Below are positions 1 through 63,566 of a stretch of DNA of 64,000 nucleotides, one piece after another. The translations under genes and the position numbers were made by a program. Position 1 is the stretch's first letter. Each line of letters starts with the position of its first letter. The notes below the pieces were generated by a model. It was given only the letters and a program-made list of their open reading frames with translations. It made no database searches and was not told the origin of the DNA. Source of the DNA: Deltaproteobacteria bacterium HGW-Deltaproteobacteria-8 (lineage in GTDB: Bacteria > Desulfobacterota > Desulfovibrionia > Desulfovibrionales > Desulfovibrionaceae); the NCBI GenBank assembly GCA_002840405.1, contig PHAR01000011.1:1-64000 (forward strand), in the 5' to 3' direction.

Positions 1-581
1 TAGAACTTGTAGCGCACCGGGTTCTTCTCAAAGTAGCGCTGGTGGTAGTCCTCGGCCGGATAGAAGGTGCTGTAGGCGATGATGGGCGTGACCACAGGCT
101 TGGGCAGCACTTTGGAATCGGCGAGATGCTTCTTGGAATCCTCGGCTTCGCGGCGTTGCGCCTCGTCGTGCACGAAGATGGCTGGGCCATACTGTCTGCC
201 CCGGTCACAGAACTGGCCGCCTGCGTCCGTGGCATCGTGATGGCGCCAGAACCACTCCACCAACTGACGATAACTTACCTTAGACGGGTCGAACCGGATC
301 TGCACCGACTCCAGATGGCCGGTTTGGCCAGCAGAGACCTGTTTGTAGGTGGGGTTATTCTCCGCACCGCCCGCGTAGCCGGAGAGGGCCTCCACCACGC
401 CGGGGATGTGCACGAAGTCAGACTCCACGCACCAGAAGCATCCTCCCGCGAAAGTGGCCATCTCAAGATTTGCGGAACTCATAGATTCTCCTTTGAGTTC
501 CTGCACTTTCTTGGGTGCGGCACTGGCAGCAGAGGCCGACAGGGTCAGCAGTAGTGCGCAGAGGGCGAAGGTTCTATTCAT
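1..581 (-). CDS. msrA: Peptide-methionine (S)-S-oxide reductase MsrA, secreted, 3' end at window edge
   Basis: The enzyme reduces methionine-S-sulfoxide in proteins, using a catalytic cysteine. The reverse strand reads from ATG at 581 to the window edge (about 193 residues seen). Residues 1-22 look like a signal peptide (MNRTFALCALLLTLSASAAS), so a periplasmic enzyme is inferred. The catalytic GGCFWCVES motif lies at about residues 45-53, followed by the family's SGYAGG and GHLESVQIRFDP segments and ending in RYFEKNPVRYKF, which is where a stand-alone MsrA normally stops. A second in-frame ATG at 482 would give a cytoplasmic form. Whether an MsrB domain follows cannot be seen. Family assignment is firm. 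Confidence 0.93.
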   Translation of the reverse strand, partial: MNRTFALCALLLTLSASAASAAPKKVQELKGESMSSANLEMATFAGGCFWCVESDFVHIPGVVEALSGYAGGAENNPTYKQVSAGQTGHLESVQIRFDPSKVSYRQLVEWFWRHHDATDAGGQFCDRGRQYGPAIFVHDEAQRREAEDSKKHLADSKVLPKPVVTPIIAYSTFYPAEDYHQRYFEKNPVRYKF

Positions 582-943
582 GTCCAAGCTCCACGATTAG
601 GGTGTGCTTATGCAAATAGGAATGTATGCCGTTTTAAGCAGGAGTCAATGCTCCAGGGCGGTGGCTTGCATGAGCAGCAGCCCCTGGTGGACACCGAACC
701 CAGGCATGACGGCATACCGGTCAACGATTTATGCGAGATCGTCGAAGGACTTGTCCAGGGCGTGTAGCCACAGAGGCGACGATTACCGACAACCGCTTGC
801 GCTTCCTACGGCAAGGCGCGTACACAGGGGGAATGGTGGTGGGCTAGCGCTCCTGCCAACGACCGGGGGCCACCTGCATGCGGCACTAAAGGTCCACTCG
901 TTGTTACTTTGAATCATTCCAGCCTGTATGGAGGGAACCCATA
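582..943. other. Intergenic region with no recognised gene
   Basis: About 360 bases lie between the divergent msrA and the HD-GYP remnant. Short open frames exist here, but none has a convincing ribosome-binding site or a recognisable product. The promoters of both flanking genes must lie here, but I see no strong -35/-10 pair. Confidence 0.5.
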
Positions 944-2237
944 ATGCGCGCGCTTGTTTATTCCATGATAACGGCTGCAGTGGTCGCCCTGTACGGGACG
1001 CGGGTCTGCCCGGTCATCGAGGCGGCCTCGCGCGTGCACTGGGTTTCTTCCCTTGTGCTATACTTCCTGGCCATGTGTGGGTTACGCGCTCTGCTGCTCT
1101 CACCGATAGTAACTTCACACCCTGGCGATGCACAATCCTTGCGCCAGCTTGCTCTGGACCAGACACTCTATCTTCTGGCCTCCATCGTTGCTGGAATATA
1201 CCCGGTTCTTGCCTTCGGCTCTCCGCCTGCGAATGGGGTGAAGGTCTTTGTCGGGGCCGTGGCTCTGGGCTTCTTCTTTTCCCTTGAGCTGGCCCTGCAG
1301 CGGGAAAGGACGGTTGTCGTCGAAGCAAGGAAGCTGGGAATCGACTGGCGGCTTGAAGGCGCCTACCTGCCGGTCACCAGGAAATTCGGTTTCCTGGCGG
1401 GTGCCTGTGTTATTTTCACCGCCTTGATCGTCGCCGCCGTCGTCATCAAGGATGTGCATGAGAACTTTCCTTTGGCGCCTGGGCCTGAATACTGGGCCGT
1501 GGCCATGTCGTGGGTTGCCAAGGATTTGCTTTTCGTCATGCTCTGCCTCACGAGCGCGGCGACATTGGTCATATCTTCCTTCGCCACCAACCCGCGACCT
1601 TGCGACCACCCAGGAAGTGACAATTATCGCCCTGGCTTCCCTGGCCGAGACCAGGGACAACGAGACCGGCAACCACATCCTGCGCACTCAACGCTACGTG
1701 CGCATCTTGGCCGAGCAGTTGGCCAAGGGGCCGCAGGCGGCGCTTTTGACCCCGCAGTACATCGACCTCCTGTACCAGTCCGCGCCCCTGCACGACATTG
1801 GCAAGGTCGGCATCCCCGATGCCATCCTGCTCAAGCCCGGCAGGCTCGAGCCGGAGGAGTTCGCGGTCATGAAGCGCCACGCGCAGTATGGGCACGACGC
1901 CCTGCAGGCCGCAGTCGACCGCCTCGGCCCCACGTCCTTCTTGCGCCTAGCCCAGGAGATCGCGCTCACGCACCACGAGAAGTGGGACGGCGGCGGCTAT
2001 CCGAATGGCCTGAAGGCGGAAGTGATTCCACTCTCAGGGCGGCTCATGGCCTTGGCTGATGTGTACGACGCGCTCATTTGCAAGCGGGTGTACAAGCGCG
2101 CTTTCAGCCACGAAGAAACCCGGGCGATCATCTTGGAGGGACAGGGCACCCACTTCGACCCGCTGGTGGTGGAGGCCTTTCTCGTAGAGGAGGCGAAGTT
2201 CTTGGTTATTGCGGCTGAATTCTCAGAAGCTGAGTAA
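944..2237 (+). pseudogene. Membrane-anchored HD-GYP cyclic-di-GMP phosphodiesterase, split by a frameshift
   Basis: Two reading frames together make one known architecture. The first frame (from ATG 944) encodes about 215 residues with roughly six hydrophobic segments, including the LALQRERTVVVEARKLG loop typical of an integral-membrane sensor module. Near 1585-1605 the sense passes to the next frame, which continues with TTQEVTIIALASLAETRDN and a full HD-GYP domain: LHDIGKVGIPD, then HHEKWDGGGYPNG, ending at 2237. The metal-binding HD and GYP motifs are intact. HD-GYP domains hydrolyse cyclic-di-GMP. Left in two frames, the gene would give a truncated membrane protein. A sequencing error, a true inactivating indel or recoding are all possible; nothing here looks like a classic slippery site. 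Confidence 0.8.
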
Positions 2238-2257
2238 AGGGGCCGATTGGCCGCTCT

Positions 2258-2310
2258 GCACTACAAATCCGCACTACAAATGTCCCCAAAAGGTCGTAAT
2301 TTTGTAGTGC
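2258..2310. repeat. Short direct and inverted repeats of GCACTACAAA
   Basis: The 10-mer GCACTACAAA occurs at 2258-2267 and again at 2271-2280. Its exact reverse complement TTTGTAGTGC is at 2301-2310. The last copy could pair with either of the first two, giving alternative hairpins. It follows the HD-GYP stop codon by about 20 bases and may be a terminator or a protein-binding site; there is no long T-run after it. Confidence 0.55.
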
Positions 2311-2492
2311 CGTCAGTAATATACGAATGATTTCAGTGCTTCTGGCGGCATTAGTTGGACGGCATTCAATTGGACGCGCACATTCAGCTACTGCGCCAGC
2401 TTTGTCTCTTGCTAATCAGCTACCGATTTGAGAGGAATTATGGTAGCGTAATGACATCCATTGACGCGACCTACAACCCGCAGAGGTCCTCC

Positions 2493-5400
2493 ATGAGTCT
2501 GTTCCGCTTCTTCCGCAAAGAGAATTCCTGCCGCGTTCTCGTGGACCCGGATGGCCGCTTGGCGCAGAAATACACGAACTTCAAGGCGCTGTTGGAGAAC
2601 AACAATGAGGCCCTGGACATCCTGGCTGGGCTGGAGCAGCTCTACTACGGCGGCGGCACGTTCAACATGGCTGCCGTGCGCGACGCCTGCCGCAGGCTCT
2701 CTGAGACCACCGGAGAGCTGGTGGTCATGCTCAACGCCCTGACCGGGAACCGGCACCAGGGACTGCGTGGGTCTCTCGCCCGCGTTGACGCCGAGATGGC
2801 TCCGCTGTTCGGGGACGGAACTGTGGCGCAGCGAGCCGATGCCCCGCTGGTGCAGCCCCTGTCCGCCGTGGACCCCGGCCAGACGGCCCTGGTGGGCGGC
2901 AAGGCCTCAAACATGGCGGCCATGCGAAACGTGCTGGGCATGCCCACGCCGGACGGATTCGCCGTCACCTCGGCGGCCTTCGCCAGCATCCTGGATGCCG
3001 GGGGCTTGCGCCAAGCCGTGGCCGCGCAGTTGGACCGGGCCTCGCCCTATGACTTGGAAGACCTGGACGCCCGTTGCCGGGTGCTGCGCGAACTCATCAT
3101 GGCGGCAGAGGTGCCGCAGGCCATTGCTTCGGCCATCCACGCGGAAGTGGACAGGCTGGAGCGTGAGGCCGGTGCCCCGGTGCTCCTGGCCATGCGCAGC
3201 AGCGCCGTGGGCGAGGACTCCCAGGCCTCCTTCGCCGGGCAGTATTCCACCGTGCTGAACGTGGGCAGGAACGGCGTGCTGGACGCCTACAAGACCGTGC
3301 TGGCCAGCAAGTATACCCCAGCCGCCATCCTCTACCGCCTGCGCTACGGACTGGACGAGGCCGACACGCCCATGTGCGTCCTGGGCCTGATCATGGTCCC
3401 CAGCCAGGCCAGCGGCGTGCTCTACACCGCCGACCCCGGCGGCCAGTTGGACCCGGAGGGCGCACCGGCCCTGCGCATCAATGCCGTGCTGGGCCTGGGT
3501 GAGCAGCTTGTCAGCGGTCGCGCCACGCCGGACATCTTCGTGCTGGGCCGGTCTCCCCTGCGCATTCTGCACCAGGAGATCAGCCCCAAGGCCGAGCGTC
3601 TGGTGACCCTGGCCGAAGGTGGCACGGCCCTCCAGGCTGTCACAGGGGCAGAGGGCGAACGCTCCTGCGTGTCCGAAGCCACGGTGCTGGACCTGGCAGC
3701 CCGCGCCCTCACCCTGGAAGCGCACTTCCACACGCCCCAGGACGTGGAATGGGCCGTTGACCCGTCCGGGCGTCTGCTTCTGCTGCAATCGCGCCCCCTG
3801 GAGGCTGCGGCCACGGTGGAGGGGCCAGCGGTCAAGCAGGAGAACATTGCCAACCCCGTTCTGCTCCAGGGCGGCAAGACGGCGGCCCCTGGCGCTGCCA
3901 CGGGTCCGGCCTTCGTGCTCGGCTCCGTTACGTCCGGCTCTGGCACGTCTGGTCCTGGCGGGCGGGAGGCCATGCCCGAAGGCGCGGTGCTGGTGGTGCG
4001 CACGGCTGCGCCCGAACACGCGGCATTGCTGGACAAGGCCGCTGGCATCGTCACCGACGTGGGCGGGGTTGCCAGCCACCTGGCCTCCGTGGCCCGCGAG
4101 CTGGGGCTGCCCGCGCTGTTCGACGCTGGCGACGCCACCACGCGCATCCCCCACGGCCAGGTCATCACCCTCTGGGCCGACGCAGCCACGGTCTATGACG
4201 GCGAGGTGGCCGAGCTGGCCCGGACGCGCTCGGGGCGCAGGAGCCACGTCTTTGACAGCCCCATGCACAAGCGCCTGCGCGCCGCCCTGGACCTCATCGC
4301 CCCGCTGAACCTCACCGACCCCGAGGCCCCGGAGTTTTCGCCCGAAGGCTGCCGCACCATCCACGACATCGTCCGCTACGCCCACGAGAAGTCCATGAAG
4401 TCCATGTTCGCCCTGTGCGACGTGGCCGGGAACGAGGCCAACGTGGTCCGGCTCAAGGCGGGCATCCCCCTGGTGCTGTACTGCGTGGACCTGGGCGGCG
4501 GCCTCAAGCCGAATCTGACCACCTGCGATGATGTAGCCATCAGCCATGTGGAGTCCATCCCCATGCTGGCTCTCTGGAGCGGGCTGACCCACCCCGGCGT
4601 GTCCTGGGCGGGCGGCGTGGCCCTGAACGCGGGCAACCTCCTCTCGCTCATGGCGTCCACCACAACCACGGCAGAGGCTCCAGGAGGGGACAGCTACGCG
4701 GTCATCTCGCACGACTACGTGAACCTGAGCGCCAAGTTCGGCTACCACTACGCCAACATCGACGCCCTCTGCGGGGAGGGGCCGGGCCAAAGCCACGTGT
4801 CCCTGCGCTTCTCCGGCGGCGTGGGCAGTTTCTCAGGCCGGTCCCTGCGCATCAACTTCCTGGCCACGGTGCTGGGGCGGCTGGGCTACGTGGTGAACGT
4901 CACCGGCGACCTGCTGGAAGCCAGCCTCAAGGGGTCGGACTGCGACGCCCTGACGGACGTGCTCGACCAGACGGGCCGCCTGCTGGCCTCCAGCCGCCTG
5001 CTGGATGTGGCCATCGGCAACCCCGGCCAGGTGGACGGCATGGTGGAGCGCTTCTTCCAGGGGAACTACGACTTCCTCGGCCAGTCCGACCGCAACCGGG
5101 TGCCGGGCTTCTACTCCCTGCAAGGCGACTGGAGCCTGGAGACAGGCGGCGAGTCCCCGGTGCTGCGCCAGGACGGCTCCAAGTGGGTGGACGGCCTATC
5201 TTCTGGGGTGGCCAGCCTGGCCGGAAAGTTCATGGGCAAGCGCTACCAGGAGTTCCTGGACGGGATTGAGGCCTACGCTTACTTCCCGCTGGCCGTGGCC
5301 CGCGATGTCCAGGCCCGCGACGCCGACCTCCAGGTGGAGGTGCTGCTGCAGGCCGGGAGCATCGACAGAGCAGGCGGGCTGGTCTTCGGCCTGAAGAACT

Positions 5401-56493: not shown

Positions 56494-58050
56494 ATGACGA
56501 TGTTCGACCGTAGCCAATTGCGCCTGTTCCCCATCAGCGAACGCATCCACGACCTGGGCCTGGATGTGATCATGGAGCTGCAGCCCACCGCCCCAGGCCC
56601 GGCCCTGGAGCGCCTGCGCCCCCTGGCGCCCTCCCTCATGCGGGCCAGGGAACTCGGCGCGGCGCGCATCCTGTTCATGGGTGCGCACGTCATCCGTTCC
56701 GGCGTGCAGCGCTACCTCATCGACCTCATGCGCCGGGGTTTCATCTCCTGCCTGGCCATGAACGGGGCAGGCCCCATCCACGACTTCGAGTTCGCCCTTT
56801 ACGGGGCGACCACCGAGAGTGTGGCCCGGTACATCGCCAGCGGGCAGTTTGGTCTGTGGCGCGAGACCGGGCGCATGAACGACGTCATGCGCGAGGCCTA
56901 CGCGGCCGACCCGCAGGCCGGGCTGGGCGCGGCCCTGGGCCGGGAGATCGCCGAAGGCGCGTACCCGCACAAGGGCCTGAGCCTCCTGGCCGAGGCCCAC
57001 CGCCTGGGCGTCCCGGTCACCGTGCACATCGGCATCGGCCAGGACATCATCCACGAGCACCCAAACTTCGACCCCGCCGCCGCCGGGGCCCTGTCCTACA
57101 ACGACTTCCTTGCGCTCACGGCCCAGGTGCAGAACCTGGAGAATGGCGTGGTCATGAACTTCGGCAGCGGGGTCATGGCCCCGGAGGTCTACCTCAAGGC
57201 CCTGAGCATGGCCCGCAACGTGGCCCACGGCCGGGGCGAGAGCATCAAGCGCTTCACCACCCTGGTCTGCGACCTGCACGACCTGCCGGACAGTTACCGC
57301 GCCGAGCCGCCCAAGTCCGAACCGGCCTATTATTTCCGCCCCTGGAAGACCATGCTCGCGCGCACCGTGCGCGACGGCGGCGAGAGCCTCTACGTCAAGG
57401 GCCACCACGCCGAGACCATCCCCACCCTGTGGACGCTGCTGGACGAGCTGGAGACGGGCCGGACCGCCGTGCCACCGGTTGGGGCCTACGACGCGGCGGT
57501 CTGCTCCGAGTGCGGCCCGGACGCGCCGGCCAGCCAGGGCTGGGACCGGCCCAAGGTCCTGGACCTGTCCGAACTGGCCCAGGCCGTGGCCGGGATGCGC
57601 GCCAGGGGCCTCAGGGTGGTGCACGCCCACGGCTGCTTCGATCTCATGCACCCGGGGCACATCAAGTATTTCCAGGCCGCCCGGCGCATGGGCGACGCCC
57701 TGGTGGTCACGGTCTCGGCGGACCGCTTCGTGGACAAGGGGCCGGGCCGCCCGGCCTACACCGAGGCCCTGCGGGCTGAGAGCATCGCGGCACTGGAGTG
57801 CGTGGACCTCGTGGCCGTGAACCCCTGGCCCACCGCGGTGGAGACCCTCAGGCGGGTGCGCCCGGATGTCTACGTCAAGGGCCAGGAGTTCGAGACGCTC
57901 ACGGACGAGACAGGCAAGCTCCAGCAGGAGCACGCCGTGGCTGTGGAGTTGGGCATCGAGTTCGCCTTCACCCACGAGATCGTCTTTTCCTCCACCCAGC
58001 TGTTGAACGCGTATTTTCGCACCGCGCCGGACGCGGACCAGGGAGAGTGA
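56494..58050 (+). CDS. Fusion: deoxyhypusine-synthase-like domain plus HxGH nucleotidyltransferase
   Basis: The protein has 518 residues. Residues about 1-320 resemble the Rossmann-like deoxyhypusine synthase fold (GAHVIRSGVQRYLIDLM, MNGAGPIHDFEFALYG, LGVPVTVHIGIGQDIIHE, VMNFGSGVMAPEV), a resemblance I judge distant. Residues about 360-518 are a cytidylyltransferase-type domain (HGCFDLMHPGHIKYF, ending FSSTQLLNAYF) like the C-terminal part of HldE/RfaE. The HPGH signature is intact. The fusion suggests a domain that builds a small precursor linked to one that activates it with CTP or ATP. Start ATG 56494 has AGGA close by. Its stop overlaps the next ATG. Confidence 0.75.
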   Translation: MTMFDRSQLRLFPISERIHDLGLDVIMELQPTAPGPALERLRPLAPSLMRARELGAARILFMGAHVIRSGVQRYLIDLMRRGFISCLAMNGAGPIHDFEFALYGATTESVARYIASGQFGLWRETGRMNDVMREAYAADPQAGLGAALGREIAEGAYPHKGLSLLAEAHRLGVPVTVHIGIGQDIIHEHPNFDPAAAGALSYNDFLALTAQVQNLENGVVMNFGSGVMAPEVYLKALSMARNVAHGRGESIKRFTTLVCDLHDLPDSYRAEPPKSEPAYYFRPWKTMLARTVRDGGESLYVKGHHAETIPTLWTLLDELETGRTAVPPVGAYDAAVCSECGPDAPASQGWDRPKVLDLSELAQAVAGMRARGLRVVHAHGCFDLMHPGHIKYFQAARRMGDALVVTVSADRFVDKGPGRPAYTEALRAESIAALECVDLVAVNPWPTAVETLRRVRPDVYVKGQEFETLTDETGKLQQEHAVAVELGIEFAFTHEIVFSSTQLLNAYFRTAPDADQGE

Positions 58051-59603
58051 TGGCAAGCCAGGACAAGATCATCGGGCTGGACGAGCTGCTGGAGCGGGTT
58101 CAGGAGCTGAAGCAGGCTGGGCGCACCGTGGTGCAGTCCCACGGCATCTTCGACCTCATCCACCCGGGCATCATCCACCACCTGAACGAGGCCAAGTCCG
58201 TCGGCGACGTGCTCATCGTCACCGTGGTGCGCGACGCCGACGTGCGCCGCGGGCCGGGCCGGCCCGTTTTCCCGGACAAGCTGCGGGCCCAGAACGTGGC
58301 CTCCCTCGAAATGGTCGACCTCGTCTGCATCGTGGCCGAGGACATCCCGTTTGAGTGCGTCAAGCTCATCAACCCCAGCTTTTTCGCCAAGGGCCACGAC
58401 CACAAGCAGCGCGACAAGCAGGTTCACGACAAGATCTTCGAGACCGAGCGCCACCTCTACTTCGGCCGCACCGAGATATTCGAGACCAAGGGTGTGTCCT
58501 TCAGCTCCACCCAGTACATCTGCAACAACTGGGACGTGTTCCCTGAAGAGACCAAGCAGTTCCTGCGCCGCATGGCCCAGCAGTTCAGCTTCGAAGACAT
58601 CCGCGGCGCGGTGAACAGCCTCTCCGGCACCCGCACCCTGATCATCGGCGACGGCATCATCGACGAGTACCACTACTGCACGGCCATGGGCCGGGCGGGC
58701 AAGTCGAACCTAGTGGTGAACAAGTACCTCAGCCACGAGCGCTTCGCTGGCGGCGTCTTCGCCATCGCCAACCATGTGGCCAGCATCTGCGATCATGTAC
58801 GGCTGATCACGGTGCTCGGCCAGGGCGACCCCAACGAGGACTTCGCCGCTGCCGGGCTCAAGGACAACATCCAGGCCGACTTCTTCCACCGCTCCGACGG
58901 CCCGACCATCGTCAAGAAGCGCTACGTGGACATCAACTCGAACCAGAAGATCTTCGAGGTCAACTACTTAAACGAGCACGACATCGACGCCGAGTGCGAG
59001 GACGCGGTCATCGCCCACCTGGAGGCCGTGCTGCCGGACTACGATGTGGTCCTGGTGTCCGACTTCGGCCACGGATTCATCAGCGAGCGCATCATCCGCC
59101 TCTTGGAAGCCCGCGCCAAGCGGCTCTGCGTGAACACCCAGACCAACGCCGCCAACACTGGCTTCAACATGGTCACCAAGTACAACAAGCCGGACTTCGT
59201 CTGCCTGGACGAGACCGAGGCCCGGCTGGCCATGCAGAACCGCTTCGGCGACATCAACGACGTGCTCACCAGCCTGTCTGCGGCGATGTGCGCCAAGGAG
59301 CTCGTCATCACCCTGGGCAAGAAGGGCTCCGTGGGCATGAGCCAGGGCGGCAAGGCGCACTTCACGCCCATTTTCTCCTCCCGCGTGATCGACACCATCG
59401 GCGCGGGCGACGCGGTGTTCTCCTACGCGGCCATCTGCTTCGCCCAAGGCCTGCCCCTGGAACTGCTCCAGTTCATCGGCAACGTGGTCGGGGCCCTGGC
59501 GGTGCAGATCGTCTGCAACAAGAAATCGGTGGAGAAGCACGAACTGCTCCAATTCATCGCCGTGATCCTGCAGCAGGACGTCTCGGCCCGCTCCCCGGAC
59601 TAG
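58050..59603 (+). CDS. Fusion: degenerate nucleotidyltransferase plus PfkB-family sugar kinase
   Basis: The protein has 517 residues. The N-terminal nucleotidyltransferase domain reads HGIFDLIHPGIIHHL: the second His of HxGH is Ile, so catalysis may be lost or altered. The C-terminal PfkB kinase spans about 180-505, with AGGVFAIANHVASIC and the catalytic DTIGAGDAVFSYAA. HldE has kinase first and nucleotidyltransferase last; here the order is reversed. TGATG overlaps the previous gene, whose nucleotidyltransferase keeps its catalytic histidines, so the two proteins may divide kinase and activation steps or form a complex. Substrate not shown. Confidence 0.8.
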   Translation: MASQDKIIGLDELLERVQELKQAGRTVVQSHGIFDLIHPGIIHHLNEAKSVGDVLIVTVVRDADVRRGPGRPVFPDKLRAQNVASLEMVDLVCIVAEDIPFECVKLINPSFFAKGHDHKQRDKQVHDKIFETERHLYFGRTEIFETKGVSFSSTQYICNNWDVFPEETKQFLRRMAQQFSFEDIRGAVNSLSGTRTLIIGDGIIDEYHYCTAMGRAGKSNLVVNKYLSHERFAGGVFAIANHVASICDHVRLITVLGQGDPNEDFAAAGLKDNIQADFFHRSDGPTIVKKRYVDINSNQKIFEVNYLNEHDIDAECEDAVIAHLEAVLPDYDVVLVSDFGHGFISERIIRLLEARAKRLCVNTQTNAANTGFNMVTKYNKPDFVCLDETEARLAMQNRFGDINDVLTSLSAAMCAKELVITLGKKGSVGMSQGGKAHFTPIFSSRVIDTIGAGDAVFSYAAICFAQGLPLELLQFIGNVVGALAVQIVCNKKSVEKHELLQFIAVILQQDVSARSPD

Positions 59604-59693: not shown

Positions 59694-60761
59694 ATGGACA
59701 AATTCAAGATCGACAGCCACAAGCTCAACTACCACCCGGCGCGCGTGGGCGCGTGGGCCGCAGGCGAGCGGATCTACCCGATCTACATGGAGATCAGCCC
59801 CTCTGGCGCGTGCAACCACCGCTGCACCTTCTGCGGCCTGGACTTCATGGGCTACGCCGCGCACAGGCTCGAGACCGCCATGCTCAAGGAGCGCCTGTCC
59901 GAGCTGGGGCGCCTGGGCCTCAAGAGCGTCATGTACGCGGGCGAGGGCGAGCCCTTCCTGCACCCGGACATGGCCGAGATCATCCTGCACACCAAGGCCG
60001 CGGGCATTGATGTGGCCCTGACCACCAATGGTACGCTCATGGACGAGGACACCGCCCGGCGCGTCCTGCCCTCGGTCAGCTGGATCAAGGTCAGCTGCAA
60101 CGCGGGCAACGCCGAAACCTACGCCGCCGTCCACCGCGTCAAGCCCGCGCAGTTCGACTTGGCCGTGCGCAACATGGCCCGGGCCGTGGAGCTTCGCCGC
60201 GAGCTGGGCTCCGCCTGCACCCTGGGCGTGCAGAGCCTGCTGCTGCCCGAGAACCGGGACAGCATGCTCGACCTGGCGCGCACCGCGCGCGACATCGGGC
60301 TCGACTACCTCGTGGTCAAGCCCTACTCCCAGCATCCTTCAAGCGTCACCGACCAGTACAAGGACATCAGCTACGCGGACTCCGAGGCCCTGGCCCGGGA
60401 GCTGCGCGAGCTGTCCACGGACACGTTCAGCGTCATCGTGCGCCTGGGGGCCATGAAGAAGTGGGACGAAAAGGCCCGACCCTACGCCAAGTGCCAGGCC
60501 CTGCCCTTCTGGTCCTACATCGACGCGCGCGGCGGGGTGTGGGGCTGCAGCGTCTTCCTCGGCGACGAGCGCTTCCTCTACGGCGACATCCATGAGCAGA
60601 GCTTTGAGGACATCTGGACCGGGGAAAGGCGCCGCAAGGCCCTGGAATGGTTTGACAGCGAGTTTGACTGCGGCGCCTGCCGCGTGAACTGCCGCATGGA
60701 CGAAATCAACCGCTACCTGTGGGAGCTCAAGCACCCCGGGCCCCACGTCAACTTTATCTAG
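59694..60761 (+). CDS. Radical SAM enzyme
   Basis: The protein has about 355 residues. The radical SAM cluster motif is CNHRCTFC near residue 41, followed by AGEGEPFLHPDM and ALTTNGTLMDE, and a C-terminal CGACRVNCRMDEINRY that looks like an auxiliary-cluster binding segment of the SPASM/twitch kind. It generates a 5'-deoxyadenosyl radical for a difficult chemical step, but the substrate is unknown. The start at 59694 is preferred over an upstream GTG at 59685. The 90 bases before it include a GAGCCG/CGGCTC stem at 59645-59665. It lies in the glycan operon between the kinase and the E1 genes. Confidence 0.88.
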   Translation: MDKFKIDSHKLNYHPARVGAWAAGERIYPIYMEISPSGACNHRCTFCGLDFMGYAAHRLETAMLKERLSELGRLGLKSVMYAGEGEPFLHPDMAEIILHTKAAGIDVALTTNGTLMDEDTARRVLPSVSWIKVSCNAGNAETYAAVHRVKPAQFDLAVRNMARAVELRRELGSACTLGVQSLLLPENRDSMLDLARTARDIGLDYLVVKPYSQHPSSVTDQYKDISYADSEALARELRELSTDTFSVIVRLGAMKKWDEKARPYAKCQALPFWSYIDARGGVWGCSVFLGDERFLYGDIHEQSFEDIWTGERRRKALEWFDSEFDCGACRVNCRMDEINRYLWELKHPGPHVNFI

Positions 60762-60771
60762 GGGACGCACA

Positions 60772-61752
60772 GTGTACGCAATCGCCCCGGCCACCCAGCT
60801 CGAGCTGTTCTGGATGATGCTCTTCATCCGCCGCTTCGAGGAAAAGATCTGCGAGGTCTATGGCGCCCAGGACATGAAGACCCCGGTGCATCTGTGCATC
60901 GGCCAGGAGGCCATCGCCGCCGGCGTGTGCGCGCACCTGGACCGCGCCGACCACCTCACGACCACCCACCGAGGCCACGGCCACTGCCTAGCCAAGGGCA
61001 TGGACCCCTACCGGCTCTACGCCGAGTTCTACGGCCGCACCGAGGGCTGCTGCCACGGCAAGGGCGGCTCCATGCATCCCGCAGACCCCGAGCTGGGTAT
61101 TTCCGGCACCTCGGCCATCGTGGGCGGCGGCATCCCCACGGCCGTGGGCGCGGCCCTGGCCAGCTTTCTGCGCCGTGAAAAGCGCGTGTCCGTGGTCTTT
61201 TTCGGCGACGGCGCCTCGGAAGAGGGTGTGTTCCACGAGAGCCTGAACTTCGCGGCCCTGAAGAAGCTGCCCGTGGTCTTCGTGTGCGAAAACAATTTCT
61301 ACGCCACAGGTTCGCCGCTGTCCTCGCGCCAGCCGCACCCGGAGATCTGGCGGCACGCGGCGGGCTACGGCATCCCCGGCCTGGCCGCGGATGGCAACGA
61401 CGTGCTGGCCGTGTACGCCAGCGCGGCCGGGGCCGTGGCCCGGGCCCGCGCCGGGGAGGGGCCCACGCTGCTCGAATACACGACCTACCGCTGGAAGGGC
61501 CACGTGGGCCCGGACTGCGACTGCGCGCGCGGGGTGCGCCCCCTGGCCGAGCTTGAGGCCTGGCAGGAGCGCTGCCCGGTGGCCGGATTTTTGAAGAAAT
61601 TGCTGGAGGCGGGCCTCGTCACCCAGGCGCAGTACGACGCCCGGCTGGCGGAGATGGACGCGCGCCTCGACGCGGACCTTGCCAAGGCCAAGGCCGCGCC
61701 CTACCCAGAGCCCCATGCCCTGCATGCGGACGTCTACCACCAAAGGTCGTAA
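60772..61752 (+). CDS. Thiamine-diphosphate 2-oxo-acid dehydrogenase E1 alpha subunit
   Basis: The 326-residue protein is an E1 alpha of the pyruvate/acetoin/branched-chain type: RRFEEKICEVYG, GQEAIAAGVCAHL, HRGHGHCLAKGMD, CHGKGGSMH, then the thiamine-diphosphate motif FGDGASEEGVFHES followed by LPVVFVCENNFYA. It starts at GTG 60772, eleven bases after the radical SAM stop. E2 and E3 genes do not follow, so this is unlikely to be a conventional dehydrogenase complex. Confidence 0.9.
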   Translation: MYAIAPATQLELFWMMLFIRRFEEKICEVYGAQDMKTPVHLCIGQEAIAAGVCAHLDRADHLTTTHRGHGHCLAKGMDPYRLYAEFYGRTEGCCHGKGGSMHPADPELGISGTSAIVGGGIPTAVGAALASFLRREKRVSVVFFGDGASEEGVFHESLNFAALKKLPVVFVCENNFYATGSPLSSRQPHPEIWRHAAGYGIPGLAADGNDVLAVYASAAGAVARARAGEGPTLLEYTTYRWKGHVGPDCDCARGVRPLAELEAWQERCPVAGFLKKLLEAGLVTQAQYDARLAEMDARLDADLAKAKAAPYPEPHALHADVYHQRS

Positions 61753-61756
61753 GCCC

Positions 61757-62800
61757 GTGCCCTGGACAAAAATCATTCTCGACAAGAGCGCAGCGCTTTC
61801 CAAACTCACCGAGGGCGGACTGCGTGCGGCCACCTATTGCGAGGCCCTGTGTGAGGCCCAGGCCCAGCTCCTGGAGACCGACGACGCAGTGTTCCTGCTG
61901 GGTGAGGGCCTGGACGAACCGGGCGGGGTCTTCGGGTCCATTGCCGGGCTCTCCGAGCGCTTCGGCAACCGCCGCGTGCTGGACAGCCCCCTGGCCGAGA
62001 ACGGCATGACCGGCATCGCCGTGGGCGCGGCCATGGTCGGCATGCGGCCCATCTTCATCCACATGCGCATGGATTTCCTGCCCATGTGCATGGACCAGAT
62101 CGTGAACCACGCGGCCAAGTGGAATTACATGACCGGCGGGCGGACCAACGTGCCCCTGGTCATCCGCAGCATCATCGGGCGCGGCTGGGGCTCCGCGGCG
62201 CAGCACTCCCAGGGCCTGCACGGGTTCTTCGCGCAGGTCCCCGGCCTCAAGGTCGTGCTGCCCAGCACCCCCTACGACGCCAAGGGCCTGCTCATCGCCG
62301 CCGTGCGCGATGGCAACCCGGTCATGTTCATCGAGCACCGTTGGCTCTACGCCAACACCGGCTTTGTCCCGGCTGAGATGTACGAGGTACCCCTGGGCCA
62401 GGGCGTGGTGCGGCGCAAGGGCCGCGACATCACCGTTGTGGCCCTGTCGCACATGGTCTGGGCGGCCATCCGCGCGGCCGAGATCCTGGCCACGGAGGGC
62501 ATCGACGTGGAGGTCATCGACCCGCGCACGGTGCGCCCCCTGGACGCTGGGCTGATCTGCGAGTCCGTGGCCCGCACCGGGCGGCTGGTCATTGCCGACG
62601 TGGCCAGCCCCAGCGGCGGCTGCTCGGCCGAGATCGCCGCCTGCGTGGCCGAGTCCGAGGCCGTGCGCACGCTCAAGGCGCCCCTCCGCAGGGTCGGCTT
62701 CGCCGAAACGCCCACCCCGTGCAGCCCTGTACTGGAGGCCGCCTTTTACCCGGACCACACCCACATCGCCGACGCCGTGCGCGCCTGCATGCAGGCCTGA
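61757..62800 (+). CDS. Thiamine-diphosphate 2-oxo-acid dehydrogenase E1 beta subunit
   Basis: The 347-residue protein has the E1 beta signatures SPLAENGMTGIAVGAAM, GRTNVPLVIRSIIGRG, GSAAQHSQGLHGFF and a transketolase C-terminal domain (DITVVALSHMVWAAIRAAE). It starts at a GTG five bases after the alpha stop. Together alpha and beta form the heterotetramer that decarboxylates a 2-oxo acid on thiamine diphosphate. With no E2 nearby, the active aldehyde may be condensed onto another molecule, as acetolactate- or phosphonopyruvate-decarboxylase relatives do. Confidence 0.9.
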   Translation: MPWTKIILDKSAALSKLTEGGLRAATYCEALCEAQAQLLETDDAVFLLGEGLDEPGGVFGSIAGLSERFGNRRVLDSPLAENGMTGIAVGAAMVGMRPIFIHMRMDFLPMCMDQIVNHAAKWNYMTGGRTNVPLVIRSIIGRGWGSAAQHSQGLHGFFAQVPGLKVVLPSTPYDAKGLLIAAVRDGNPVMFIEHRWLYANTGFVPAEMYEVPLGQGVVRRKGRDITVVALSHMVWAAIRAAEILATEGIDVEVIDPRTVRPLDAGLICESVARTGRLVIADVASPSGGCSAEIAACVAESEAVRTLKAPLRRVGFAETPTPCSPVLEAAFYPDHTHIADAVRACMQA

Positions 62801-62807
62801 GGAACGC

Positions 62808-63566
62808 ATGGACAAGACACTCAGCATCGTCATCCCGGCCTTCAACGAGGCCGCCAACATCAAGGCCACCGTGGACGAGGTCCTCAAGGCCATCGGCGGC
62901 AGCTTCGTGGACTTTGAGCTGATCATCGTCAACGATGGTAGCGCGGACGACACGGGCCGGATCATAGACGAACTGGGCGCCGCCGACCCGCACGTGAAGC
63001 CCGTGCACAACGAGCAGAACATGGGATTCGGAGCGTCCTACCGGCGCGGGGTGGGCCTGGCGCGCATGAACTACGTGGGAGTTTTTCCCGGCGACAACGA
63101 GATCATCGGCCGGTCCATCGCCCGCATCCTGGCCCTGGTGGGCAGTGCGGACATCATCGTGCCCTTCACCATGAACATGGAGGTGCGCCCATATTCGCGC
63201 CGCCTGTTCTCGCGCCTTTACACGCTGATCATGAACATGGTCTTCACCTGCGAGCTGCAGTACTACAACGGGCCGGTCATCCACAGGCGCGACGTGCTCC
63301 AGGCCACGCCCATAAACACCAGCGGGTTCGCCTTCCAGTCCACGCTCCTGGTGCGCCTGATCCGCAGTGGCCACTCCTTCATCGAGGTGCCCATGTACCT
63401 GCGCCCGCGCCTGGGCGGCCGCTCCACCGCCCTCAAGCTCAAGAACGTTCTGAGCGTCTGTCTGGCCATCGTCCGGCTGGCCAAGACCGTGCATGTGGAC
63501 GAAAAAAGTCGCTACTCCGAGCCGAACAACCGCGTCATGTTCCCCAACACGCCGCCGGGCTCGTAG
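62808..63566 (+). CDS. Family 2 glycosyltransferase (DPM1/polyprenyl-phosphate type)
   Basis: The 252-residue protein has the GT-A fold: LSIVIPAFNEAANI, IIVNDGSADDTGRI, a variant DxD region (GVFPGDNEII) and VPMYLRPRLGGRST near the C-terminus. There is no long C-terminal membrane domain. It likely moves a sugar onto a polyprenyl phosphate carrier at the inner membrane. It begins seven bases after the E1 beta stop. Confidence 0.92.
   Translation: MDKTLSIVIPAFNEAANIKATVDEVLKAIGGSFVDFELIIVNDGSADDTGRIIDELGAADPHVKPVHNEQNMGFGASYRRGVGLARMNYVGVFPGDNEIIGRSIARILALVGSADIIVPFTMNMEVRPYSRRLFSRLYTLIMNMVFTCELQYYNGPVIHRRDVLQATPINTSGFAFQSTLLVRLIRSGHSFIEVPMYLRPRLGGRSTALKLKNVLSVCLAIVRLAKTVHVDEKSRYSEPNNRVMFPNTPPGS

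Follow-up and report, generated by a model that had tools for sequence, protein, structure and literature searches.

A kinase-linked nucleotidyltransferase domain with a conserved loss of its second catalytic histidine, and its association with an intact upstream partner

In the present study, two overlapping genes were analyzed in a 64,000-nucleotide stretch of contig PHAR01000011.1 from Deltaproteobacteria bacterium HGW-Deltaproteobacteria-8 (the whole stretch is referred to below as the window). The first gene encodes P0001, in which a GSU2086-family domain is joined to a nucleotidyltransferase (NT) domain with an intact HPGH motif, and the second encodes P0002, in which an NT domain whose motif reads HPGI is fused to a PfkB kinase. 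Several findings have been obtained. First, the second histidine of the motif is absent in 57 of 103 readable fused NT domains of this family and kept in 46. Second, where a separate NT is encoded upstream of the kinase gene, this histidine has been lost in 52 of the 53 pairs with a readable fused NT, and in loci without an adjacent partner HxGH is kept in 45 of 50. Third, the altered NT is under purifying selection. We consider it probable that nucleotide transfer has moved to the P0001-type partner and that the old NT survives under constraint as a pseudo-transferase that influences the kinase in cis. According to a sequence-only reading of the window, one NT would be active and the other, tethered to the kinase, would have a structural or allosteric function, a proposal that seems to be supported by the partner-linked loss, the purifying selection and a divergence of the altered domain that tracks the kinase.

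The gene pair and its family assignments

The features of the pair, all on the forward strand, are as follows.

56494-58050, +, P0001: GSU2086-family domain and NT domain with intact HPGH, 518 amino acids
56503-57435, +, GSU2086-family domain (NF052581), P0001 residues 4-314, with a predicted deoxyhypusine synthase / AgrE-ArgZ C-terminal fold
57553-58044, +, NT domain of P0001, predicted to be active; it groups with other partner NTs
57649-57660, +, HPGH motif of P0001, read from the sequence
58048-58052, +, TGATG stop/start overlap of the P0001 and P0002 genes, read from the sequence
58050-59603, +, P0002: altered NT domain fused to PfkB kinase, 517 amino acids
58050-58544, +, altered (putative pseudo-) NT domain of P0002, about residues 1-165, from Pfam and motif comparison
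58161-58172, +, HPGI motif of P0002, with the Ile codon ATC at 58170-58172
58590-59573, +, PfkB kinase domain of P0002, with a GAGD motif and an HldA-like fold

The motif reads GCFDLMHPGH at residues 380-389 of P0001 and GIFDLIHPGI at residues 32-41 of P0002, in agreement with the sequence-only reading, which had described HPGH in the first protein, HPGI without the second catalytic histidine in the second, and a gene overlap at TGATG. That reading also pointed to an FSSTQ run in both proteins. The run was found at residues 498-502 of P0001 and 151-155 of P0002, but its identity in the two proteins is partly chance, as only the two serines are well conserved in altered copies (S152 in 53/57, S153 in 52/57). 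Both NT domains belong to CTP_transf_like (PF01467, gathering cut-off 21), with 53.2 bits at P0001 residues 379-468 and 37.2 bits at P0002 residues 32-141; the HxGH signature of this family, so named in the excerpted text of PMC6060094, is present with both histidines in P0001 and not in P0002. A domain that is kept while a catalytic residue is lost, with the loss itself conserved, is the mark of a pseudoenzyme, and by sequence the P0002 NT would qualify.

The N-terminal ~315 residues of P0001, to which the sequence-only reading had assigned no family, represent a GSU2086-family domain (NF052581, 362.2 bits against a cut-off of 250). For the AF2 model of this part alone (mean predicted local distance difference test, pLDDT, of 92.5), the nearest structures in Foldseek and VIA-align are deoxyhypusine synthases and the C-terminal parts of AgrE and ArgZ, with Z of 16-20 among the 50 matches listed (best 20.1, root-mean-square deviation (rmsd) 3.1, 223 aligned). 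Some of these matches are NAD complexes by title.

The PfkB kinase of P0002 (PF00294, residues 232-486, 80.5 bits against 25.8) looks intact: it carries the GAGD motif, D454 is invariant in 65 rows, and its predicted fold resembles HldA 4e84 (Z 34.2, rmsd 3.3, 303 aligned in the fold search), with both fold searches using P0002 being filled by kinase matches. HldE (RfaE) combines the same NT and PfkB domain families, but P0002 has the domains in reversed order, lies below the HldE cut-off, has an NT without the second histidine and adjoins an extra NT gene. P0002 scored 158.5 bits against the curated HldE cut-off of 521 (NF008454) and 107.4 bits against the HldA cut-off of 345 (TIGR02198), and for HldC (TIGR02199, cut-off 181.5) P0001 and P0002 reached 97.4 and 88.1 bits. 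In HldE the kinase is N-terminal and the adenylyltransferase C-terminal; in the NF008454 alignment, P0002 residues 4-128 correspond to profile positions 319-445, and residues 193-510 of a relative (L036) to positions 4-313. The earlier observation that the kinase is C-terminal, opposite to HldE, therefore stands as a description of domain order, but relatives with intact HxGH share this order, so it is not linked to whether the histidine has been lost.

Loss of the second histidine and the upstream partner

Relatives were collected by a genome search and one contig scan, from which the best 80 of 410 relatives were kept, and the domains were located with profiles built in this analysis. Among 105 fused NT domains, the motif was readable in 103 (L077 and L085 were unreadable, and L079 has no NT); L001-L004 and L013, comprising the window itself and distant hits, were left out of the motif table, and L102, a kinase split between frames, is in this table and not in the kinase tree. 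The counts include five pairs of identical kinases (L014/L034, L015/L046, L016/L040, L017/L047 from two collections, and L036/L037 from two bins). Flanks of up to 8 kb (less at contig ends) were searched for partners at the best-80 loci, and 1.5 kb at L005-L030 and in a second set described below. Two pattern matches, and no relative, were obtained in viral contigs.

In the 57 altered domains, the second histidine is replaced by Ile (40), Val (11), Leu (2) or Asn, Met, Thr and Ser (1 each), and never by an acidic residue, Lys or Arg. None of the 157 NTs compared (57 altered ones, 46 fused ones with His, and 54 partners) lacks the first histidine or the Asp of GxFD. The possibility that HPGI is a local error was rejected, because Ile or Val recurs in 51 of the 57 altered copies and every Ile and Val codon is represented. 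Alignment across homologues, the check suggested by the sequence-only reading, thus showed the loss to be conserved, as the usual state when a partner NT lies upstream, with HxGH as the usual state when none is adjacent. Judged by the titles of the records, altered copies are found in Nitrospirae, Deltaproteobacteria, Nitrospinae, Omnitrophota, Planctomycetota, Elusimicrobia and other groups, and one record is from the archaeon Methanoperedens; as most records are metagenome bins, single taxonomic placements may be wrong.

A separate upstream NT was found at 54 loci, of which 52 have an altered fused NT, one an intact fused NT (L064) and one a kinase without NT (L079). All 54 of these partners carry HxGH and the Lys of [DN]KG. 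Seen from the other side, the partner lies upstream on the same contig for 52 of the 57 altered loci (51 in the kinase-tree set and L102), and only one of the 46 HxGH relatives, L064, has an adjacent partner. Partner and kinase are on the same strand in all 53 measured pairs, and the gap from the partner stop to the first aligned NT residue is at most 150 bases in 48 of 53 and 182 to 4437 in the rest. The window and L005 have the partner and the GSU2086 domain joined in one protein, and the two are separate at the other profile-mapped loci; a GSU2086 gene is near 48/57 altered and 15/46 intact loci, a comparison made with unequal flanks.

Five altered loci of the first set lack an adjacent partner. 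L017 and L047, whose kinases are identical, are cut off by the end of a contig, with a fragment of the partner (69% identical) still present, the partner of L076 is on another contig, and L038 and L074 are taken up below. The second set comprised 60 loci from 30/33 and 30/45 matching genomes; 25 of the 60 kinases were at least 97% identical to earlier ones and not counted, and 35 loci were counted as new, with repeats among themselves kept and L149 (96.6% identical to L074) included. These are 30 intact loci without an adjacent partner, two altered with one, two altered without one nearby, and one kinase without NT. Partner-type NTs at 62-64% identity are present in the genomes of these last three loci, ~52 kb away on the same contig in G688, on another contig in G667, and ~1.6 kb upstream in G704. 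Taking both sets together, the altered form without an adjacent partner is found in six distinct genomes, four of which hold a partner-type NT elsewhere (in one case the contig-end fragment). Conversely, no full-length stand-alone partner-type NT was found in 15 HxGH genomes searched whole, chosen by hand from the best-80 loci (none from L006-L030) among the 45 without an adjacent partner; other stand-alone hits in these 15 were 29-47% identical and ended by residue 115 of 164.

All rows with the altered form fall within one part of the kinase tree (63 rows, support 93), which also holds four intact rows (L064, L075, L081 and L084). In the NT tree, whose root is unsure, one group is made up of the 57 altered NTs with L064 (support 87), and the 54 partners form a separate group (support 95) that adjoins intact fused NTs and contains L075, L081 and L084. 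Given this position beside intact fused NTs, a recent origin of the partner by copying of the NT on the kinase seems unlikely. In a second tree, the partner group consists of 44 partners and exactly L075, L081, L084 and L157 (support 87). In these four relatives, the NT on the kinase is thus of the partner type; the altered domain would have been replaced there, possibly by deletion between neighbouring copies.

Two observations concern the intact copies. L064 (8467-10011), the sole paired kinase in the motif table that keeps HPGH, has RRG and KGKTH like the altered NTs. In the kinase tree, a neighbouring group (L082, L083, L086, L087, L088, L090, L092, L093, L097 and L103) retains HxGH; eight of the ten are titled Omnitrophota/Omnitrophica, and nine have Arg at a usually conserved Lys. 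This group perhaps represents a step before the histidine was lost.

Role of the altered domain

The dN/dS ratio of the altered NT was 0.03-0.09 (14 of 15 pairs computable), compared with 0-0.11 for the kinase and 0.02-0.15 for the partner; the 15 close pairs of altered loci were hand-picked near neighbours, and with several dS above 1 these values are rough. Over 51 paired loci, mean pairwise identity was 0.625 for the altered NT and 0.614 for the kinase. Intact NTs have 42 columns with conservation of at least 90%, and in 29 of these the altered NTs still reach at least 80%; those not kept include the second histidine, the Tyr at 112, which is mostly Phe now, and the D-x-T-G columns 124-127. 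Of 100 intact and partner NTs, 99 have an acidic residue two positions after KG, which is missing from 53 of the 57 altered NTs. Also, the divergence of the altered NT follows that of the kinase (partial r 0.50, 0/500 permutations, 37 loci), which fits a role tethered to the kinase, and co-divergence is also expected from sitting in one gene; the corresponding value for GSU2086 was 0.21.

The inactivity of the HPGI domain is argued by analogy. In the FAD synthetase of C. ammoniagenes, kcat fell from 17 to <0.1 per min when the second histidine of HxGH was replaced (H31A), according to the excerpts of PMC3509593, and the P. falciparum CCT mutant K663A was practically inactive in transfer, as given in part of PMC6060094. 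On this basis the HPGI domain should not transfer nucleotides and is presumably catalytically dead. As the seemingly disabled copy is kept in distantly related microbes, it has probably taken on another function, perhaps that of stabilizing or guiding the kinase. Because transfer inactivation is indicated by analogy and the kinase looks intact, we favor the explanation in which P0001 transfers the nucleotide and the altered NT acts in cis.

Herein, we propose the following course of events. The ancestral kinase would have had an active NT domain of its own. Another NT gene, which in the window is joined to the GSU2086 domain, would then have settled just upstream of the kinase gene, after which the NT of the kinase would have lost the second catalytic histidine together with some of the residues on the acceptor side. 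The altered NT would have been kept folded, stabilizing or regulating the kinase in cis, and may still bind a nucleotide or the nucleotide-sugar product. P0001 and P0002 would thus both act in a single nucleotide-sugar pathway, similar to the GmhA-HldA-HldC (heptose) route and distinct from it, in which the PfkB domain of P0002 would phosphorylate a sugar phosphate and the NT of P0001 would transfer a nucleotide to the kinase product.

Several results weigh against this explanation. Few independent events underlie the association between the partner and the histidine loss: the fewest changes between His and non-His on the kinase tree are five, and an independent-pairs test used 3-5 pairs and gave no significance. 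L064 is paired yet keeps HPGH, and no partner was found in the draft genomes of L038 and L074; only 1/147 genomes of the L038 phylum, that of L038 itself, has a relative, so the L038 bin may be mixed. The NT domain is dispensable in some lineages, as kinases without any NT occur. Within the domain, the P0002 of the window keeps the acidic residue after KG (D117). The Lys of DKG is Arg in 48/57 altered NTs and Lys in 7/57, but Arg also occurs in 11/46 HxGH relatives, and this change was dropped as a second mark of inactivity. Finally, the H31A enzyme bound ATP without Mg very weakly, and its ATP:Mg value, near wild type, is an average over two sites (PMC3509593, excerpts), so that retained nucleotide binding does not follow from the FAD synthetase work.

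The kinases without an NT are L079 (3539-4618), which starts just after the NT's end, and L160 (1465-2544), and both still have a partner.

One form of the cis role, to be entertained tentatively, is that of a sensor that binds a nucleotide or nucleotide-sugar without turnover and inhibits or activates the kinase. The first histidine (H38) and the GxFD Asp (D35) are each kept in 57/57 altered NTs, as are the two serines in most and the KG Lys in 50/57, whereas the second histidine and P0002 columns 124, 126, 127 and 117 are mostly changed; moreover, in the part of PMC11228364 consulted, non-catalytic GMPPA binds GDP-mannose and regulates GMPPB. However, the residues kept may serve the fold, the weak Mg-free ATP binding noted above counts here too, residues 118-129 and 153-161 of the NT were modelled at pLDDT <50, and the domain has been lost in some lineages. 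As a speculative extension, the HPG[I/V] domain could be a conserved prokaryotic pseudo-NT that binds the nucleotide or end product and gates the fused PfkB as a feedback valve. It is equally conjectural that such a valve was made from the kinase's former transferase and has persisted in several phyla of bacteria and in one archaeal record or more.

Less likely is a scaffold in trans, in which the altered NT forms a heterodimer with the active partner NT beside the kinase for handing over the phosphorylated sugar. The partner and kinase genes stand together in 52 of the 57 non-His loci, and in L075, L081, L084 and L157 the kinase itself bears a partner-type NT in place of the altered one, as if physical coupling were useful. 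Despite this, no residual co-divergence of the altered NT with the partner NT is left after removal of the kinase and GSU2086 distances (partial r 0.04, 184/500 permutations, 37 loci), the partner is not adjacent in G688 and G667, and L079 and L160 have a partner without the altered NT.

It is improbable that the altered NT can still catalyze transfer, on another substrate or by a modified mechanism: the constraint is strong, H38 and D35 are invariant and L064 has His at the site, but the replacements are mostly Ile or Val and never acidic, Lys or Arg, and loss of this histidine abolished measurable FAD synthetase activity (PMC3509593, excerpts). A decaying relic of duplication, which the two lineages without an NT and the four with a partner-type NT in its place might suggest, is very improbable given dN/dS and identity values like those of the kinase.

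Related systems and neighbouring genes

No paper on the altered NT was found in the open-licence literature searched. One related system is the split HldA/HldC, which likewise has separate active NT and kinase proteins (the activity of P0001 being predicted); here, however, the kinase keeps an altered NT, and another contig of this genome encodes HldA (353.5 bits, cut-off 345) and HldC (188.4 bits, cut-off 181.5) besides. In Geobacter sulfurreducens, the GSU2086-family gene of GSU2085-GSU2086-GSU2087 stands beside genes annotated hldE and gmhA, and these three genes are listed among those affecting electrode growth (PMC5585712, excerpts). Compared by annotation, the window differs in that the GSU2086 domain is fused to a predicted active NT and the kinase-linked NT is altered.

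Paired NT domains are also found in the two-domain ethanolamine-phosphate cytidylyltransferases (ECT), where both are in one chain, whereas here they are in two proteins, one with a kinase. For the Plasmodium ECT, only one NT domain is reported to be active (Maheshwari 2013, a reference of PMC10033509). GMPPA and GMPPB have another NT fold. They likewise include a non-catalytic paralogue, which regulates the active nucleotide-sugar pyrophosphorylase (PMC11228364, excerpts), but this pair is eukaryotic and the target there is an NT, and here it is more likely the kinase.

Kinases with an active NT, with an altered NT and a partner, with a partner-type NT instead, and with no NT form a natural series, so that how a catalytic domain becomes structural or regulatory is directly testable. 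For annotation pipelines, the present results are a warning, as the label HldE on these proteins implies a transferase activity that the kinase-linked domain probably lacks.

Four genes follow the pair in the window, with relatives near altered loci of the best-80 set (n=49).

59694-60761, +, radical SAM/SPASM protein, relative near 28/49 loci
60772-61752, +, dehydrogenase E1 alpha-like, near 21/49 loci
61757-62800, +, E1 beta-like (transketolase pyrimidine and C domains), near 19/49 loci
62808-63566, +, family 2 glycosyltransferase (GT2), near 18/49 loci

The genes at 59694-63566 are a partly conserved cluster, as all four are near 10/49 altered loci; radical SAM with E1 alpha and E1 beta is near 13. 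At the intact best-80 loci (n=28), radical SAM is near 6, together with E1 alpha/beta near 2, and with GT2 as well near 2. A GmhA-like gene lies ~1.8 kb past the window end on the other strand (69.5 bits against a gmhA cut-off of 209.45), and the product of the pathway may be heptose-like. In L045, the kinase is followed by a SIS gene and then by radical SAM, E1 alpha, GT2 and another radical SAM gene, and E1 beta was also found.

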